This document shows, piece by piece, positions 2,944-12,423 of a DNA stretch of 64,000 nt (positions are counted from its first letter, which is position 1; every line of letters begins with the position of its first letter). The stretch is taken from positions 1-64,000 of the forward strand of contig JAFMKB010000005.1 in the NCBI GenBank assembly GCA_017853205.1. Reading direction: 5' to 3'. The notes below the pieces were generated by a model, which saw nothing but the letters and a program-made list of their open reading frames with translations, did no database searches and had not been told where the DNA came from. A program made the translations under genes and the position numbers. This DNA comes from Gammaproteobacteria bacterium (GTDB taxonomy: Bacteria; Pseudomonadota; Gammaproteobacteria; Pseudomonadales; Pseudohongiellaceae).

Positions 2944-4983
2944 ATGAGTGAACGCCACGACGACGAAATCGAAGTCATCGACTTTGAGCCGGTTACCGAA
3001 ACCAAACGCGGTTTCTCTTATCGCTTCAGATGGCTGCACGCGTTTGTTGCCTGCTTTGGTGCAGCTGCGCTTATCTCGGCGTGGTTCGTGCTTACCGCAA
3101 AATCAGTTCTCGTTGAGGTGAACCCGATTACCGCGCAGATCAAAATCGACAACGGCTTTGCGCTGCGCGTTGGGGCACGTTATCTGATGCGTACCGGCGA
3201 TTACACGGTTGCCCTTAGTAACCCTGGCTTTCACGACGAAATTGCACCGCTTGTTATCAATGATGACGCGGCGCAGACACACAGTTATGACATGCGCAAA
3301 CTTCCAGGCATTGTGAGCATTAACGCCTTACCTGACGGCGGACGTGTGCGCATCGATGGCGTCGATGTGGGCGATGCGCCGCTAATCGACATTGATGTCG
3401 AGCCGGGTGCCCACGAAATCAGCGTCACCCGCGAGCGCTACTTACCGGCGACACAAACGATAGACATCGAAGGACGTCGGCAGCAGCAGGCGTTCGAACT
3501 CACGCTTGAGCCGGCGTGGGCTACCGTAAGTTTTACAACGACACCTTCCGGTGCCGAGCTTTTAGTTGACGGCGAAAGCATTGGGACAACTCCCCTTAAT
3601 GCCGAAATTTTGCAGGGACGCCGCGAGGTTACACTTAAACTTTCGGGCTATAAAGCGTGGCAGGAGCGGCTCGAACTTGACGCCGGGACAAGCCTCCTAG
3701 TCCCGCGGGTCGAACTAGAACCTGCCGATGGTCTCGTGTTTATTAACTCGCAGCCGAGCGGTGCGAGCGTCACCATTGGCGGTGAGTTTAAGGGACAAAC
3801 GCCGCTTGAGGTTGCGCTCGCACCTGATGTCAATCATGTGATCACCTTCTTTAAGAATGGCTACAGCTCGCAAGAGACACGGCTCACGACACGCGCAAAC
3901 GAGTCACGTGAGATCGAGATTGAACTTACGCCTGTGCTGTCGGATGTCAGGATTGCAGCAACGCCAAATGACGCCGAACTCTTCATCGATGGGATAAGCC
4001 GCGGCTCTGCTAATCAAACACTCGCGCTTATGGCGATTAGCCAGCGGGTCGAGATTCGCAAAGAAGGCTATGTACCCTACGAAGCGGAGTTCACGCCCCG
4101 TCCGGGTCTGCAGCAGGAGATTCGCGTAAATCTAACTTCGCTCGAAGACGCGCGTATCGCAGCGATCAAGCCGGTTATCACCAACCCCGCCGGTCAGCGC
4201 ATGAAACTCTTCAATCCCGATCGCTTTTCGATGGGGGCATCGCGCCGCGAAGCCGGTCGACGACCGAACGAAACGATCCGCGATATTATTCTGGAGCGAC
4301 CGTTCTATTTATCGCTCACCGAGGTAACCAACGCACAGTATCGTGAGTTCGACTCCGAGCATAATTCTGGTACGACCAATGGCATGACCCTTAACAACGA
4401 AAGCCAACCTGTTGTGCGAATCACGTGGCAACAGGCGACAGATTTTTGTAACTGGTTGAGCGAGCAAGAGGGGTTGACCCCTTTCTACACGGAGTCGGGA
4501 ATCGACGCGACAAGCAGCGGCTATCGACTCCCAACCGAAGCCGAGTGGGCGTGGGCGGCGCGGCGTGACACAGAAGACCCCACCGGCATGCGCAAATACT
4601 CTTGGGACGGGGAATTACCGCCGCCGGACGGTGCGGGAAATTTTGCCGACGTCAGCGCGCGTGCCTTCTTAGGCGATATACTCTTCGAGTATAACGACCG
4701 CTCGCCTGTCACCACCGCGGTGGGAAGCTACAGCGCCGATCATCATGGCCTATTTGATATGGCAGGCAATGTTGCCGAATGGGTCAATGATTATTACGGT
4801 GCGAGCGGCAGCCTCGGCGTCGAGCGAGATCCGCTCGGTCCTGACGCTGGTCAATTTAGAGTTATTCGCGGTTCGAGTTGGGCGCACGGCACGATTACTG
4901 AGCTACGCCTGTCGTTCCGTGATTTTGGTGAAGAAGCGCGCGATGATGTGGGTTTCCGCGTCGCACGTTACCTCGAAGATTAG
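2944..4983 (+). CDS. Membrane-anchored PEGA-repeat protein with C-terminal FGE-sulfatase/SUMF1 domain
   Basis: N-terminal TM; four PEGA-like repeats (PSGAELLVDGESIGTTPL, PSGASVTIGGEFKGQTPL etc.); FGE signatures YRLPTEAEWAWAAR, GLFDMAGNVAEWVNDYY, RVIRGSSW, GFRVAR. Confidence 0.88.
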   Translation: MSERHDDEIEVIDFEPVTETKRGFSYRFRWLHAFVACFGAAALISAWFVLTAKSVLVEVNPITAQIKIDNGFALRVGARYLMRTGDYTVALSNPGFHDEIAPLVINDDAAQTHSYDMRKLPGIVSINALPDGGRVRIDGVDVGDAPLIDIDVEPGAHEISVTRERYLPATQTIDIEGRRQQQAFELTLEPAWATVSFTTTPSGAELLVDGESIGTTPLNAEILQGRREVTLKLSGYKAWQERLELDAGTSLLVPRVELEPADGLVFINSQPSGASVTIGGEFKGQTPLEVALAPDVNHVITFFKNGYSSQETRLTTRANESREIEIELTPVLSDVRIAATPNDAELFIDGISRGSANQTLALMAISQRVEIRKEGYVPYEAEFTPRPGLQQEIRVNLTSLEDARIAAIKPVITNPAGQRMKLFNPDRFSMGASRREAGRRPNETIRDIILERPFYLSLTEVTNAQYREFDSEHNSGTTNGMTLNNESQPVVRITWQQATDFCNWLSEQEGLTPFYTESGIDATSSGYRLPTEAEWAWAARRDTEDPTGMRKYSWDGELPPPDGAGNFADVSARAFLGDILFEYNDRSPVTTAVGSYSADHHGLFDMAGNVAEWVNDYYGASGSLGVERDPLGPDAGQFRVIRGSSWAHGTITELRLSFRDFGEEARDDVGFRVARYLED

Positions 4984-5082: not shown

Positions 5083-5361
5083 ATGGCAGCACTAAGCAAT
5101 CTCAGTCTTGTTACCCGCGCAGCGTTACTGCTTGCGTGTGTGTGGGTGTTTAGCGCCGCCGCGCAAGACGCAGAACAGAACCCGCCACCGGCTGTCGAAA
5201 CAGAGGTGACGCAAGAGCCTGTACAAGAGACCGACTTGGCAGATAGCGGAAACAATGAAAACAACGATGGCGAAGTTGCCGAGGAAGAATCAGGCGCACG
5301 TTTTATTCCGACTGAAGAAATCTCGCAGGACTTTGGCGTGTCGTTTCCAGTTGACATTTAG
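5083..5361 (+). CDS. Small exported acidic protein
   Basis: Signal peptide RAALLLACVWVFSAAAQ; acidic low-complexity region; C-terminus FIPTEEISQDFGVSFPVDI; lies between co-directional genes. Confidence 0.6.
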   Translation: MAALSNLSLVTRAALLLACVWVFSAAAQDAEQNPPPAVETEVTQEPVQETDLADSGNNENNDGEVAEEESGARFIPTEEISQDFGVSFPVDI

Positions 5362-5394: not shown

Positions 5395-6222
5395 ATGAGA
5401 CAGGGTTTGTTAAACGGCGCGCTCTTTCAGGTTGCGGCACTGATTACTTCAGTAATCATTGTGCACATGGCCTATGTGGCGGTTATACGTCCCAACGCTG
5501 AGATCGTCTCGCAGCAGCAAGAATACCTGCAGCAAACCGATCCCGAGTACACACCCGAGCGCTCCTTCTATGTTGTGCTTCGCGACTTCGAACAAGAGAC
5601 CTGCATCATTCTGTTTTTGTGGGCCACGGCGATTATCGGGCTAAAAGCAAAGCAGACACTCGGTGATCGTAAACTGCTCGACCGCAATTTACTTCAAGTC
5701 ACTGAGGGCACCAGTATTTTGCCGCAGGACGCACGCAACTTCGCGCGGCCACTGCAGGCGCTTAGTGACGACGAACGTGTCACGCTGTTGCCCCGAGCGC
5801 TTATCGCTGGATTGCATCGTTTTCAGAGCACACAAAGTATTCAAGACGTGTCGACCACGGTAAAAGATGTGTGCGAGTCCGAAGCTGATCGCATGGAAAC
5901 CGAATTGGCGATCGTGCGTTACATCGCGTGGGCGATTCCCTCGATTGGCTTCCTTGGCACCGTACGCGGCATCGGCACAGCGCTCGGTCAAGCCTATCAG
6001 GCGGTGAATGGCGATATCGTCGGCGTTACCGTAAGCCTCGGCGTGGCGTTTAACTCAACCTTCGTTGCGCTTGTGGTGAGCATCATATTGATGTTTGTTC
6101 TGCATCAGCTTCAGCTAGTGCAAGACAGATTAGTGCTCGACTGCCAAACCTATTGCGACGAACGCATGATTCGGCATCTGCGTGTGCCGAGTACAAAAAC
6201 CGACAACGAGTTAATTGCCTAA
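5395..6222 (+). CDS. MotA/TolQ/ExbB proton channel family protein
   Basis: YIAWAIPSIGFLGTVRGIGTALGQA...VTVSLGVAFNSTFVALVVSIILMFVLHQLQ is characteristic of MotA/TolQ/ExbB. Confidence 0.88.
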   Translation: MRQGLLNGALFQVAALITSVIIVHMAYVAVIRPNAEIVSQQQEYLQQTDPEYTPERSFYVVLRDFEQETCIILFLWATAIIGLKAKQTLGDRKLLDRNLLQVTEGTSILPQDARNFARPLQALSDDERVTLLPRALIAGLHRFQSTQSIQDVSTTVKDVCESEADRMETELAIVRYIAWAIPSIGFLGTVRGIGTALGQAYQAVNGDIVGVTVSLGVAFNSTFVALVVSIILMFVLHQLQLVQDRLVLDCQTYCDERMIRHLRVPSTKTDNELIA

Positions 6223-6256: not shown

Positions 6257-7546
6257 ATGTCACCGCAAATTTTAGAGCTAAACGATCACGGAATTACTTT
6301 CGGCAATGCCGAAGGCATTCGGCTGATTAGTCCGGGGTTTGCACTCGCTCGGGAAAAATCCCTCGTGCTTGGCGCGCAGGCTCAGGCGCAGTCGCGGCTA
6401 CATCCAAACGAAAGTCATAGCCGTTATTGGCAGGAACTGAGTCTCGACCCGCTGCCTGCAGGTCGCCTGCCCGGCAACCGCTTCCGCCACCTCGCCGATC
6501 TCGCCCATGCGCATCTCAATGGGCTTGCCGTCGACGCTGATGCCAACACCGACAATGTTATTGTAAGCGTGCCCGGGAGTTTTTCGCGGCAGCAGCTCGG
6601 TATTCTTCTTGGCATCGCCAAACAGACGCCGCTTGCCATTACAGGTCTTGTCGATTCGGCGCTTATCTTCGCGGCCGGCGCGCAGTCGATAAACGCGAGC
6701 GACGATACAATCGTCGTTCAGCAACAACTGCATCAGACACTTTTTACGCTAGTGAGTTGGCACGAGGGCATGCTTAAGGTCGACACCTCGGTCGCGCTTC
6801 CCTCAAGCGGTAGTCAGAATGTCATCGACGCGCTCATGCAGCTGAGCACAGAGTTGTTTATCGATCAGTGCCGGTTTAACCCGCAGCATGACGCACCGAC
6901 CGAACAGCTTTTATACAACGCGCTGCCAGCATGGCTCGCCGCCGATGCGTCGAGCGGCAGTCTGATGTTAGAGCTTAGCGCCGACGGTGCGGTCCATAAT
7001 GCTAAGCTGCCTTATGAGAGTTTAGTCTCCTCGCTTGCCCCGATCCGGCAGCGACTTTTAGCGCAGCTAAACGCGATGCTAAGCCGAGCGCCACATGCGC
7101 AGATCGTTCTGTGTTCAACCTTGAGCGAGCTGCCCGGCTTAATGCCGCAGCTCGCACAGTTGGCGCCGGTAACAACACTTAATGCCGAACAACACCTTGC
7201 GAATAGCCTTACGCATAGCGATCAAATTTTGAGTGGCGGCGCGAGCAGTCTGTGTAAGACGCTTTCACTGTCTCGGCCTGCCTCGGCGTCGCCGACAACG
7301 TCAGAGGCCGCGAGCGAGACAGACGGCGCTGCAGGAGACGCGCTCGCGCAGGTCGGTTTAAGTGCTCAGGGTGCGCAGGCAGCTGCGCTGCTTAGTAGTC
7401 TGCGCGTTAATGGCGAGCGTGTCGCAAACGCAGCAGAACTTACTCTCAAACAGGGCGACTCGCTTACGCTGAGCATCGACAGCGAAGCAGACGGACAGAA
7501 CACGCTAACGTTTAATCTAAAAAAGCTAACCAATGGCGCAGACTAA
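6257..7546 (+). CDS. Hsp70/actin-fold-like protein (degenerate)
   Basis: NVIVSVPGSFSRQQLGILLGIAKQTPLAITGLVDSALIFAA resembles the Hsp70/PilM core; SD AAGGAG upstream. Confidence 0.6.
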   Translation: MSPQILELNDHGITFGNAEGIRLISPGFALAREKSLVLGAQAQAQSRLHPNESHSRYWQELSLDPLPAGRLPGNRFRHLADLAHAHLNGLAVDADANTDNVIVSVPGSFSRQQLGILLGIAKQTPLAITGLVDSALIFAAGAQSINASDDTIVVQQQLHQTLFTLVSWHEGMLKVDTSVALPSSGSQNVIDALMQLSTELFIDQCRFNPQHDAPTEQLLYNALPAWLAADASSGSLMLELSADGAVHNAKLPYESLVSSLAPIRQRLLAQLNAMLSRAPHAQIVLCSTLSELPGLMPQLAQLAPVTTLNAEQHLANSLTHSDQILSGGASSLCKTLSLSRPASASPTTSEAASETDGAAGDALAQVGLSAQGAQAAALLSSLRVNGERVANAAELTLKQGDSLTLSIDSEADGQNTLTFNLKKLTNGAD

Positions 7547-8642
7547 ATCACAGAAAAGTCAGAAGAGACAAGTAAGCCCGCTAAGCCTCGCGTTTCTCGA
7601 CGTGATGTTCTGCGGCTTTGGCGCGGTGATTTTACTTTTTCTCATTCTTGATCACGCCGATACCGTGGCCGCGGTCACAGTCGATCCGAGCATCGCCTCG
7701 GAGGTAAGTCTGCTCGAAGAGGAGGTGCTAGAGGGCGCGCTCAATCTTGAGCGAATTCGCAATACCGTCGCCGAGGTAAGCCTCGAGGTAGTAACCGCCG
7801 AAGGACTCGCGCGCGAGATTCAAGAGCAGATACAAACCTTTATGCAAGAGCTCGCCGCGCTCGAAAATTCCAGCACGGCAACCGTCGAAAGTATCGAGAG
7901 GCTGCGCGCCGATGTGCAAGCGCTCGAAGAAGAACTGCTGCGCCTTCAGGCGAGCGCGCTGGATCAGGAAGGCAACAGCGTTCGTCAGTTTTTAGGCGAC
8001 GGCAGTCGGCAGTATCTCACCGGTCTTTTTCTCGGCGGGCAGCGAATCCTCATTTTAGTCGACAGCTCGACCAGCATGCTCGACGAAACGCTGGTGAATA
8101 TTATTCGCACGCGCAATATGAGCGACGAGCGCAAGCGCGAAGCGCCAAAGTGGCAGCGCGTGGTAAGGACGGTGGACTGGGTGAGCACACAGCTGCCGAT
8201 CACGAGTCGGTATCAACTGTGGCAGTTTAGTAATACTACTGACACATTGTTAGACGGCGACAAATTTACGTGGCAAGAAGTCGCCGACCGCGACGGCCTC
8301 AATGTAGGCATTGAGAACATGAAGGCGCTCGTGCCCAATAACGGTACCGACCTCGATCAGGTGTTTCGCGCGATTTCAAACATGGATGAGCCGCCGGACA
8401 ATATTTTTCTTATCACCGACGGGCTTCCGACCCTCGGCGGCCGCGGCAAAACGACAGGGCTCATAACGCCCAAAGATCGCATGGACCTGTTCGAAGACGC
8501 GATAAAAGGTTTGCCTAATAATGTGCCAGTAAACGTTGTACTCATGCCGCTCGAGGGTGACCCGAGCGCGTCGGCAGCCTATTGGCAACTCGCGCAAATT
8601 ACTCGCGGGTCGTTTATCACGCCGTCTAAGGATTGGCCCTGA
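7533..8642 (+). CDS. TM/coiled-coil/VWA protein, TolR/MotB-like anchor (VWA1)
   Basis: N-terminal LAFLDVMFCGFGAVILLFLIL; long coiled coil; MIDAS ILVDSSTSM; 14-nt overlap with upstream CDS. Confidence 0.82.
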   Translation: MAQTKSQKSQKRQVSPLSLAFLDVMFCGFGAVILLFLILDHADTVAAVTVDPSIASEVSLLEEEVLEGALNLERIRNTVAEVSLEVVTAEGLAREIQEQIQTFMQELAALENSSTATVESIERLRADVQALEEELLRLQASALDQEGNSVRQFLGDGSRQYLTGLFLGGQRILILVDSSTSMLDETLVNIIRTRNMSDERKREAPKWQRVVRTVDWVSTQLPITSRYQLWQFSNTTDTLLDGDKFTWQEVADRDGLNVGIENMKALVPNNGTDLDQVFRAISNMDEPPDNIFLITDGLPTLGGRGKTTGLITPKDRMDLFEDAIKGLPNNVPVNVVLMPLEGDPSASAAYWQLAQITRGSFITPSKDWP

Positions 8643-9646
8643 TGCTTAAGCGCAGCCGCGAGACAGAGTCGTTTACCGTATCGTTTCTCGATGTCGCGTC
8701 CTGTGGCTTTGGCGCGATGATTATTTTGTTAATGCTCGCCAAGCCCTCGCAGCCAGCGCCTCTGGAGGACGCCGAGGCCGCGCCGGCGGCGGTTATCTCC
8801 GAACTTCAAGAGCAGCTTTTCGAGATTCGAGGCGAGACGCGCGTGGTTAACCGCGAGCTCAACGCCAAGCAAGAGCAGCTTTCGTCTATAAAAGAACGTG
8901 TGGCGCGCCTTCGTCGTGACCTTAGCGAGGTGCAGGGCGAGTTTCAAAGCTCGAAGCAGCTTTCGGATGAGACCACCGACGAAATTGGTAAACTGTCGCT
9001 CGCACAGCAGTCGCTTACCGAAGAGATGCAGCGCCTTGCCGCTAACAGCCGCGCGCCGGAGAATAATGCGATCGGCGGCATACCTGTCGACAGCGAATAC
9101 ATTATCTTTGTCATCGATACCTCGGGGTCGATGTTCAATAACCCGAGCTGGGGCAAAATGCTCGGGGTGATCGAGGACACCCTGAATGTCTATCCCGACG
9201 TGAAGGGAATACAGATCATGAACGACATGGGCGACTACATGTTCGACTCGTTTCGAGGCCAGTGGATTCCGGACACACCTGCGCGCCGCACACAGATCTT
9301 GTCAACCTTGCGTAACTGGAACCCGTTTAGCAACTCAAGCCCTGTGGAAGGGGTGACCCGAGCGATCAATACGTTCTATGCGCCCGATAAAAAGATCAGC
9401 ATTTACGTTTTGGGCGATGATTTTCAACCCGGCGGCTCGATTCGTGACGTATTACGTACTATAGATAGGATCAATGTCGAAGACGCCGACGGCAATCGTC
9501 TCGTGCGTATTCACGGCATTGGGTTTCCAACAATCTTTGCGGGTCCGGCACGGTTTCAACAAAGCGTCTATCGCTACGCAACGCTTATGCGCGAGATGAC
9601 ACAGCGAAATGGTGGTACATTCGTAGGCCTGAATGATTTTCAATGA
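8642..9646 (+). CDS. TM/coiled-coil/VWA protein, TolR/MotB-like anchor (VWA2)
   Basis: N-terminal VSFLDVASCGFGAMIILLMLA; coiled coil; MIDAS FVIDTSGSM; TGATG overlap with VWA1. Confidence 0.82.
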   Translation: MLKRSRETESFTVSFLDVASCGFGAMIILLMLAKPSQPAPLEDAEAAPAAVISELQEQLFEIRGETRVVNRELNAKQEQLSSIKERVARLRRDLSEVQGEFQSSKQLSDETTDEIGKLSLAQQSLTEEMQRLAANSRAPENNAIGGIPVDSEYIIFVIDTSGSMFNNPSWGKMLGVIEDTLNVYPDVKGIQIMNDMGDYMFDSFRGQWIPDTPARRTQILSTLRNWNPFSNSSPVEGVTRAINTFYAPDKKISIYVLGDDFQPGGSIRDVLRTIDRINVEDADGNRLVRIHGIGFPTIFAGPARFQQSVYRYATLMREMTQRNGGTFVGLNDFQ

Positions 9647-9650
9647 GTGC

Positions 9651-10271
9651 ATGATGAAAAATTCAATTCGATCAATCGCTAAAACGCTGTGCACAGCCTT
9701 CTGCGCGCTCGTGCTTGCCAGCTGCGGCGTAAGCAAAGTCGTTATCGAAGGCAGTTATCCAAGCCCCAATGTGGCAAAGCTGCCGCTGTCTCTGGCCGTG
9801 GTTTACGACGAGCCCCTGCGTAATTTTAGCTACATAGAGTATTCCGAAACCGGCGCCGAAGAATTTAATATCGCCAGTGGCGCATCGCATGTCGCGCTAT
9901 TCGACGCGGTGCTGCCGGCTATGTTTGAGTCGGTGGTCGAGGCGGCAAGTCTTGAGGAAGCCGAGTCGCTCGGCGTCGATGCGATTTTCGTGCCCGCAAT
10001 CGATGAGTTTCAACTCGCACTGCCTAATAAAACCAAGCTTGATGTTTACGAGGTATGGATTCGCTACAACATGCGCTTAGTTAGCGGTGATGGCGCGCCG
10101 ATCGCTGACTGGGTGCTAACCTCGTACGGCAAGACGCCTACCGAAAGTTTGCGTACAGCCGATGCGGCAATCAACGACGCCGCGGTAGTCGCGCTACGTG
10201 ATCTTGCGTCGAGCTTTTCGTTAAGTTTTGCGCAAGTGCCCGAAGTGCGCGATTGGTTAGCGTCGCGCTAA
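9651..10271 (+). CDS. Lipoprotein of unknown function
   Basis: Signal peptide plus lipobox LVLASC; start chosen after the VWA2 stop. Confidence 0.65.
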   Translation: MMKNSIRSIAKTLCTAFCALVLASCGVSKVVIEGSYPSPNVAKLPLSLAVVYDEPLRNFSYIEYSETGAEEFNIASGASHVALFDAVLPAMFESVVEAASLEEAESLGVDAIFVPAIDEFQLALPNKTKLDVYEVWIRYNMRLVSGDGAPIADWVLTSYGKTPTESLRTADAAINDAAVVALRDLASSFSLSFAQVPEVRDWLASR

Positions 10272-10316
10272 TTGAGTTGCTAAATGAGTCGCGAAAGAAG
10301 AGTTAAGGAGGTTATT

Positions 10317-10961
10317 GTGAAAGCATTATTGCCCCTGTTGGTAGTGTTACTAGCCTCGTGTACTAGCACCACGGTTGATGAGTTTCGCCAAGGCGAGACG
10401 GGGATCAACAGCGATGAGTCTATTGTTATCCTCGGACGCAGACATTCGAGCGATTACGAAACACGCGCCGAATTTGTCGACTGTGTAGGCGAGCGCATGA
10501 CAACCGGTAACGACTCGATTTCAGTTATCCCCGAAAAAGAATTTGTCGACGCCATGTTCCCGTGGTTCGAGCCGCGCACCGCGCCGCTCAGAACCCAAGA
10601 CCTCGAGCGGCTGATGGCAGAGCCAGTTGTTGCCGAAAAAATGGCCGAGTTCGGCGTACGGTATATGGTGTGGCTCGATGGTTTCACCGAAACCAGCGGC
10701 CGAACGGGCACAATTTCTTGCACCGTGGGCCCTGGCGGCGCCGGTTGCTTCGGGTTTGGTTCGTGGGAGGACGACTCGACCTTCGACGCGCGCGTGTGGG
10801 ATGTGGCCTCGCTGCAAAACGTAGGTACTATAAGCACCGACGCCTCAGGCCAATCGTATTTGCCCGCGCTCGTTATTCCCATTCCACTGATCGCACGAGT
10901 CGAGGCGAATGCCTGCGTCCGCCTTGCCGATCAGCTCAAACAGTTTGTCAATGGCGAATGA
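10317..10961 (+). CDS. Lipoprotein of unknown function
   Basis: GTG start 6 nt after SD AAGGAGG; lipobox VLLASC. Confidence 0.65.
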   Translation: MKALLPLLVVLLASCTSTTVDEFRQGETGINSDESIVILGRRHSSDYETRAEFVDCVGERMTTGNDSISVIPEKEFVDAMFPWFEPRTAPLRTQDLERLMAEPVVAEKMAEFGVRYMVWLDGFTETSGRTGTISCTVGPGGAGCFGFGSWEDDSTFDARVWDVASLQNVGTISTDASGQSYLPALVIPIPLIARVEANACVRLADQLKQFVNGE

Positions 10962-10977
10962 CTTAGCGGAGAACTCT

Positions 10978-12423
10978 ATGACTCGCCCACTCGCACTTCT
11001 CACTCTTCTCTGCCTTGCGCTCACCACTGCCGGCTGCGCCGTCAACCCTGCCACTGGCGGCGCAAACTTAGTGTTGATGACCGAAAACAAAGAGAAAGAA
11101 ATCGGCCGCGAAGAACATGAGAAAGTGCTCGCCTCGATGCCCATTTATAAAGACGACGTATTGCAGGCCTATGTCGAGCGCGTGGGTAATGACATTGCCG
11201 CGGTAAGCCACCGTCCCGATTTAGACTATACGTTCACTATTATCGATAATCCCGAGATCAATGCCTTCGCGCTACCCGCGGGCTATGTCTACGTTAATCG
11301 CGGTCTGCTCACTTTCATGAACTCTGAGGCAGAACTCGCTGCGGTGCTCGCACACGAAATCGGCCACATCACGGCGCGTCACGCGGTGCAACAGCAAGCG
11401 CGCGGCGGCTTGGCTAAAACCGCCTCGACCGTTGGCGGCATCGTGACGGCTGTCGCCACTGGCAGTGGCTATGTTGGTTCGCAGATAAGCGACATCGCTT
11501 CTATTTGGGCCCAGAGCGGACTGAGCGGTTTTGGCCGCGAAGACGAGCTCGAAGCCGATAGCCTTGGTGCCGAATACATCGTTAACGCAGGTTACGATCC
11601 CGCGGCCATGATCGAGGTGATTACCGTTCTCAAAAACCAAGAAGACTTTAATCGCAAGGTCGCGGGCACGGGAGGGGGCTATCATGGGCTGTTCGCCACT
11701 CACCCGCGCAACGACAAACGGCTTCAGGAAGCGATCGAAGACGTCGCGACTCTGGGCGGCAACGCGATAACCCGTACCGACAACACTGAGTTTAGAACGG
11801 CACTGGACGGCCTCGTTGTTGGCCAGAGCGCGCAGTCGCAGCGCAGCGACGAACGCAATCGCTACTATCAGTCGCTTCTGGGCTATACCCTGGTGTTTCC
11901 GCCCGAGTGGACTGTTGCGGAGACGACCACCACCGCCACAGGCTCGCTCGAGGGTGCCGGCTCGCTGAGAATTGAGGCGCAGCAGCTGCAGGATAATCTG
12001 GACCCCAGACTCTTTATTAAAGAAAAGCTCGGCATCGAAAATTTGCAGCAAAGCGAGCCGCTTGAGCAGTTTAGGCTCGTAGGGCACACGGGCCTCGTGC
12101 AGACAGCTGAGGGCACACGCGAGCGCGTCGCCGTAATCTATCTTGGCCGCCGCGCAATGATTTTTCGCGGGCAGGCCAGTAGCGACGAAGTCGATGCCGA
12201 AATACTCGCCTCGATTCGCTCGTTCCGTGCAATTCAGCGTGGCGAAGGCGCTGGCGTCGAAGCCAAAATTCGTTTCGTTCAGGCAAGCGAGTTTTTCGAC
12301 TTTAAGATAGTTGCCCAGCAGAGCCGCATCGCGAATTATCCCGAGGAGACGCTGCGACTGCTGAACAATTATTATCCCTCCGGCAATCCTGCGCCCGGCA
12401 CGTGGATTAAGCTCGTCGAATAG
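10978..12423 (+). CDS. M48-family zinc metalloprotease, lipoprotein
   Basis: Lipobox TTAGC; HEIGH zinc motif; E-rich third-ligand region EDELEADSLGAEY. Confidence 0.88.
   Translation: MTRPLALLTLLCLALTTAGCAVNPATGGANLVLMTENKEKEIGREEHEKVLASMPIYKDDVLQAYVERVGNDIAAVSHRPDLDYTFTIIDNPEINAFALPAGYVYVNRGLLTFMNSEAELAAVLAHEIGHITARHAVQQQARGGLAKTASTVGGIVTAVATGSGYVGSQISDIASIWAQSGLSGFGREDELEADSLGAEYIVNAGYDPAAMIEVITVLKNQEDFNRKVAGTGGGYHGLFATHPRNDKRLQEAIEDVATLGGNAITRTDNTEFRTALDGLVVGQSAQSQRSDERNRYYQSLLGYTLVFPPEWTVAETTTTATGSLEGAGSLRIEAQQLQDNLDPRLFIKEKLGIENLQQSEPLEQFRLVGHTGLVQTAEGTRERVAVIYLGRRAMIFRGQASSDEVDAEILASIRSFRAIQRGEGAGVEAKIRFVQASEFFDFKIVAQQSRIANYPEETLRLLNNYYPSGNPAPGTWIKLVE

Follow-up and report, generated by a model that had tools for sequence, protein, structure and literature searches.

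Gene organization

The window (the whole stretch of 64,000 nucleotides that was analysed) contains a compact cluster of 11 genes on the + strand, which runs from the lipoprotein gene LP0 through an M48-like open reading frame. The genes are:

37-1230, + strand: LP0, a predicted lipoprotein (lipobox LVLTSC); first gene of the cluster, conserved
1267-2940, + strand: TPR protein with a single N-terminal membrane segment; weak TPR match, conserved in the operon
2944-4983, + strand: membrane-anchored protein with PEGA repeats and an FGE-like domain; top NCBIfam match GldK/PorK, below the model cut-off
5083-5361, + strand: SML, a small exported protein with a conserved C-terminal FPVDI tail
5395-6222, + strand: A subunit, MotA_ExbB family; T189 (5959-5961) and T222 (6058-6060) align with the TolQ/ExbB pore threonines
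6257-7546, + strand: Hsp70-like cytoplasmic protein; weak Hsp70-like N-terminal part and weak FHA-like C-terminus (PDB profile matches of low significance)
7533-8642, + strand: VWA1, 369 aa; helix at ~17-44 with Asp23 (7599-7601), coiled coil at ~52-145, VWA domain with MIDAS at 177-181
8642-9646, + strand: VWA2, 334 aa; helix with Asp17 (8690-8692), coiled coil at ~48-134, VWA domain with MIDAS at 159-163
9633-10271, + strand: LP1, a predicted lipoprotein (lipobox LVLASC)
10284-10961, + strand: LP2, a predicted lipoprotein (lipobox VLLASC)
10909-12423, + strand: M48-type metalloprotease-like open reading frame (HEIGH motif), which usually closes the cluster

The VWA genes are closely interlocked with their neighbours. 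The first codons of VWA1 lie within the 3' end of the Hsp70-like gene, and VWA2 in turn runs into LP1; the start of VWA2 is most likely the ATG at 8642, in a TGATG overlap with the VWA1 stop, rather than the TTG at 8633 given in the list of open reading frames. These overlaps suggest that the genes are probably coupled in translation. Several products gave little in homology searches. LP0 had no convincing match in Pfam and PDB profile searches, the profiles of A, LP0 and LP1 had no matches among PDB sequences, and the Hsp70-like protein had none in Pfam. The C-terminus of the latter weakly resembles the FHA domains of KIF13B, EssC, Ki-67 and Rad53 (E 0.006-0.07). The FPVDI tail at the extreme C-terminal end of SML resembles a docking peptide.

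The A subunit

A matches the Pfam family MotA_ExbB. All 58 homologues keep its T189 and T222, which align, free of gaps, with the Thr pair of the TolQ and ExbB proteins of the same genome. There are six MotA_ExbB matches in this genome, and elsewhere they are found in the company of the usual partners: TolQ with TolR, ExbB with ExbD, a tandem ExbB pair followed by ExbD, and MotA with MotB. A is the only one that has no TolR, ExbD or MotB in its locus; in their place is the VWA pair, and the cluster holds no other candidate B gene. The Zorya system, whose ZorAB also has a MotA-like A, was considered and set aside: A matches ZorA only weakly (E 3e-4), no ZorB, ZorC or ZorD match occurs in the operon, and the B proteins here are of the VWA type.

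VWA1 and VWA2 are homologous proteins with a membrane Asp

An earlier note on this DNA, made from the letters alone, had proposed that VWA1 and VWA2 are paralogues that share a membrane motif, FLDVxxCGFGA, each followed by a coiled coil and a MIDAS-bearing VWA domain. This description holds. Both are genuine open reading frames, VWA1 carrying LAFLDVMFCGFGAVILLFLIL with Asp23 and VWA2 carrying VSFLDVASCGFGAMIILLMLA with Asp17; each has a single clear N-terminal hydrophobic segment, and the membrane helix opens with the motif. The families are homologous in an hhalign comparison (probability 99.5, E 2e-22) with an alignment that spans FLDxxxCGFGA, and the common motif is therefore not due to chance. 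The predicted structures of both combine a helix with a long coiled coil and a VWA fold (mean pLDDT 70 and 76), with low confidence in the membrane helix of the single-chain models. Foldseek matched both to VWA domains at a best E of ~1e-6 to 1e-7 and a probability of 1.0. The MIDAS reads DSSTS in VWA1 and DTSGS in VWA2; DxSxS is kept in nearly all homologues of both, and TDGLPT (VWA1) and GDD (VWA2) are candidates for further metal ligands. In Pfam, VWA1 falls just under the VWA_2 cut-off and VWA2 proteins mostly under it. Assignment to the ExbD/TolR or MotB/OmpA families was rejected, as there is no Pfam or NCBIfam match and the C-terminus is a VWA fold. VWA1 and VWA2 profiles run against PDB sequences produced only chance matches to coiled coils.

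The Asp is strictly conserved. Among homologues found by protein search of genomes, F, L and D of the FLD are invariant (56/56 VWA1, 55/55 VWA2). A second set of 80 loci, which overlaps the first in some genomes, has Asp in 80/80 VWA1 and 79/79 VWA2, of which only the VWA2 count is independent, since the VWA1 scan pattern itself contained FLD. The prospect that the Asp might not be conserved in homologues, which the earlier note had raised against its own proposal, was thus checked, and the residue is invariant in both paralogues. Other helix positions vary. Position Asp+2 is Met in nearly all VWA1 and Ile, Ala or Val in VWA2. At Asp+4, 128 of 135 loci have Cys in both proteins and 7 have Ser in both, with 0 mixed pairs; as Ser replaces Cys in these 7, in both proteins together, the Cys is not essential. 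Rare changes at Asp+1 are also concerted (C/C, A/A). The joint loss of Cys goes back to one evolutionary event, and no more than three lie behind the Asp+1 changes, too few for independent-pair statistics; these joint changes may point toward pairing of the two helices.

Distribution and phylogeny of the pair

With an orthologue threshold of E < 1e-50 for A, the 20 genomes with A, out of 274 of the class, are also the 20 with VWA1, one copy of each per genome, and 18 of them have one VWA2; in the remaining two the locus ends at a contig edge. In total 59 loci from genomes and 80 from named records were compared, the two sets partly overlapping. The recurrent order is LP0-TPR-FGE-SML-A-(HSP)-VWA1-VWA2-LP1-LP2-(M48), complete in 49 of the 80 named-record loci. 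VWA1 and VWA2 are both present in 79/80 of the latter, they lie side by side wherever the locus is not truncated at a contig end, and all two-VWA loci (56/56) have one VWA1 and one VWA2 in the same order. One A gene with two B paralogues, as the earlier note had read the locus, is thus an obligate arrangement across ~135 loci. Four loci with a single VWA (L042, L051, L113, L115) were considered as true losses and rejected, as all end at contig ends. Likewise, L047 is not a pair without A: the A orthologue was found on another contig. It belongs to a family in which A has been relocated, to a position after VWA2 (L048) or to another contig (L047), and the VWA pair has stayed together.

Many marine Gammaproteobacteria, cultured strains among them, have kept the operon, with records from Microbulbifer, Pseudoalteromonas denitrificans, Thalassomonas, Pseudohaliea and many Gammaproteobacteria metagenome bins. 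Three metagenome bins titled Klebsiella pneumoniae also carry it (L138, L149, L168); these labels are probably wrong. In one family (L102-L113), VWA1 genes have no ATG, GTG or TTG upstream of the helix; a conserved Leu codon is found there, and another start codon is possible. In the incomplete genome of L115 (G658:C34), the downstream end occurs a second time, as a partial copy at a contig end.

In a phylogenetic tree VWA1 and VWA2 form two separate clades (SH-aLRT 100), ~3 substitutions per site apart, which broadly follow the same species grouping. Such clean, old clades with parallel species grouping imply that the split between VWA1 and VWA2 is old and that neither copy is dispensable.

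How did the pair originate? Four genomes have a distant A (E ~1e-20). At the cousin loci of sufficient length (L208:7078-13443 and L211:4125-7883) the distant A lies near FHA and PP2C genes, named by reading the sequences, and one protein has the helix REINIFxxSALDLFASAxGAF, with the Asp in the same position as in VWA1 and VWA2, and a C-terminal VWA domain. In two other genomes (L213, L215) the helix SALDLFASAxGAF is followed by a different periplasmic domain in place of VWA. A like helix joined to VWA or to another domain indicates that constraint lies on the helix and that the periplasmic head can be exchanged. The single B gene beside the distant A suggests that the VWA1/VWA2 pair arose from duplication of one B.

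A probable hetero-dimeric axle

Do VWA1 and VWA2 share one motor? The Asp-to-MIDAS distance, which ranges from 134 to 156 in VWA1 and from 132 to 146 in VWA2, offers a clue. The stalk lengths of the two proteins co-vary (Pearson 0.95 raw), and independent contrasts give r = 0.61 (permutation p < 1e-4; control contrasts ~0), a correlation carried by a few large events (sign test p = 0.06). A pair of stalks held in register would behave in this way. Because of the ancient separation of the paralogues, their perfect co-occurrence and the co-varying stalk lengths, a hetero-dimeric B is favoured; one VWA1-VWA2 axle per motor appears quite probable from these sequence data.

In the proposed mechanism A would form an ExbB/TolQ-type pentamer in the inner membrane, and the axle would be made of one VWA1 helix and one VWA2 helix, each with an ion-binding Asp near its cytoplasmic end. 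Ions that pass the two Asp and the Thr ring of A would make the axle rotate against the pentamer. On the paired coiled-coil stalks, two different metal-binding VWA heads would project into the periplasm, where they may push or grip partners from the same operon, i.e. the PEGA/FGE-fold protein and LP0, LP1 and LP2; for these lipoproteins, an extension to the outer membrane is predicted. The pairing as hetero- and not homodimer, the rotation and the identity of the partners are what we infer here, and the explanation as a whole, from A pentamer to heads acting on operon partners, is fairly likely.

An alternative is that A is a common pentamer protein of two motors, A5:VWA1x2 and A5:VWA2x2. Retention of the Asp in both VWAs is equally expected with homodimers in separate A pentamers, and the full helix motif and the MIDAS are likewise kept in both; cousin loci with a single VWA of like helix suggest that a homodimeric axle is workable. 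However, over the deep tree no locus retains just one VWA. The co-variation of stalk lengths and the consistent helix differences, e.g. at Asp+2, also argue against two homodimeric motors, which are therefore unlikely. Could one VWA be the axle and the other a side-bound force transducer like TonB or TolA? A separate vWA family with an SHLS helix has been proposed to bind the sides of motors (PMC12204202), but VWA1 and VWA2 both have the invariant Asp and FLDxxxCGxGA, and the SHLS motif is absent from their aligned helices; such a division of labour is most improbable. Nor need a VWA protein belong to a motor, as these domains are common in non-motor proteins, and the Pfam scores just below (VWA1) or mostly below (VWA2) the VWA_2 cut-off could be taken in this sense. 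VWA1 and VWA2 would then be membrane-anchored chaperone or metal-sensing proteins, with an Asp that serves for helix pairing only. That the two are strictly tied to an A in which both pore threonines are present, that the cluster holds no alternative B gene, and that cousin loci retain the helix while the periplasmic domain swaps, all speak against this, and it is very unlikely. The reading that is preferred is the VWA1-VWA2 axle.

Operon partners and possible task

What might the motor drive? A literature search for a function of the operon found no published one. The best clue comes from the PEGA/FGE protein. Its top NCBIfam match, GldK/PorK, has an E of 5e-33 and lies far below the cut-off of that model. 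It has one conserved Cys column (Cys 502) and lacks the catalytic FGE Cys pair; the fold is thus probably structural and non-catalytic. In PorK, an inactive FGE fold serves as the docking hub of the ring on which the PorLM motor engages (PMC12421860). The analogy suggests that the FGE protein may be a target of the VWA heads, and that the lipoproteins may be another, reached either by way of the FGE protein or without it. The Hsp70-like protein, with its weak FHA-like C-terminus, recalls the FHA and PP2C genes near the distant A, a hint of regulation by phosphorylation. A more elaborate model can be drawn: an obligately asymmetric 5:1:1 motor in which two non-equivalent Asp helices and two metal-gated VWA heads alternate on an FGE scaffold. 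It would be the equivalent, in Gammaproteobacteria, of the T9SS/gliding drive and would have an Hsp70/FHA-like regulator in the cytoplasm. Taken as a whole, this model is distinctly unlikely.

Relation to known systems

The VWA pair with A appears to be a member of a kind already described. A 2025 computational study (PMC12204202, Mol Biol Evol, msaf138) reports a TolQ-linked vWA family with a TolR-like helix and a conserved Asp, 'predominantly found in heterologous pairs'; in its AF3 models of such pairs the two Asp lie within the Thr ring of the pentamer (Fig. 4c-d). The features in common are a vWA pair beside a tolQ-like gene, the absence of tolR/exbD, the Asp helix and Thr in A. The section on this family, whose reference sequence is from Idiomarina, shows no tree of the paralogues and mentions no FGE/PEGA, Hsp70-like or lipoprotein genes. 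Orthologues of the present VWA pair were found in Pseudoalteromonas and Thalassomonas. The earlier note had suggested a 5:1:1 asymmetric unit as unusual. The pairing is favoured by co-occurrence, old split and stalk co-variation, but the novelty was overstated, given these published heterologous pairs.

One A with two B genes is an older theme still. The Myxococcus xanthus gliding motor AglRQS likewise has one MotA/TolQ-like gene and two Asp-bearing B paralogues, and whether AglQ/AglS are hetero- or homodimers is stated as unknown (PMC9389320). AglQ/S have TolR-like peptidoglycan-binding domains, not VWA, and the gene set differs. TolQR, ExbBD and MotAB share with the operon the A-subunit family, the pore Thr and an N-terminal helix Asp near the cytoplasmic side; they differ in having one B gene per A, with a TolR/ExbD or OmpA-like end in contrast to the coiled coil and VWA found here. 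GldLM (PorLM) with GldK (PorK) is comparable as an ion-driven 5:2 motor that acts on a non-catalytic FGE-fold partner (PMC12421860). Unlike the VWA pair, GldM/PorM is one gene with Ig-like domains at the end, and unlike GldK/PorK, the FGE protein of the operon bears PEGA and is anchored in the inner membrane.

What is new is the evidence for an ancient obligate pair, the 11-gene operon with a probably non-catalytic FGE-fold partner, and the single-B cousins. Must a motor axle be two identical chains? If the hetero-dimeric axle is true, its two ion sites could be mutated separately. VWA1 and VWA2 also have only one Cys each, both at Asp+4, and masses of ~41 and ~37 kDa, so that hetero and homo dimers could be distinguished by size.
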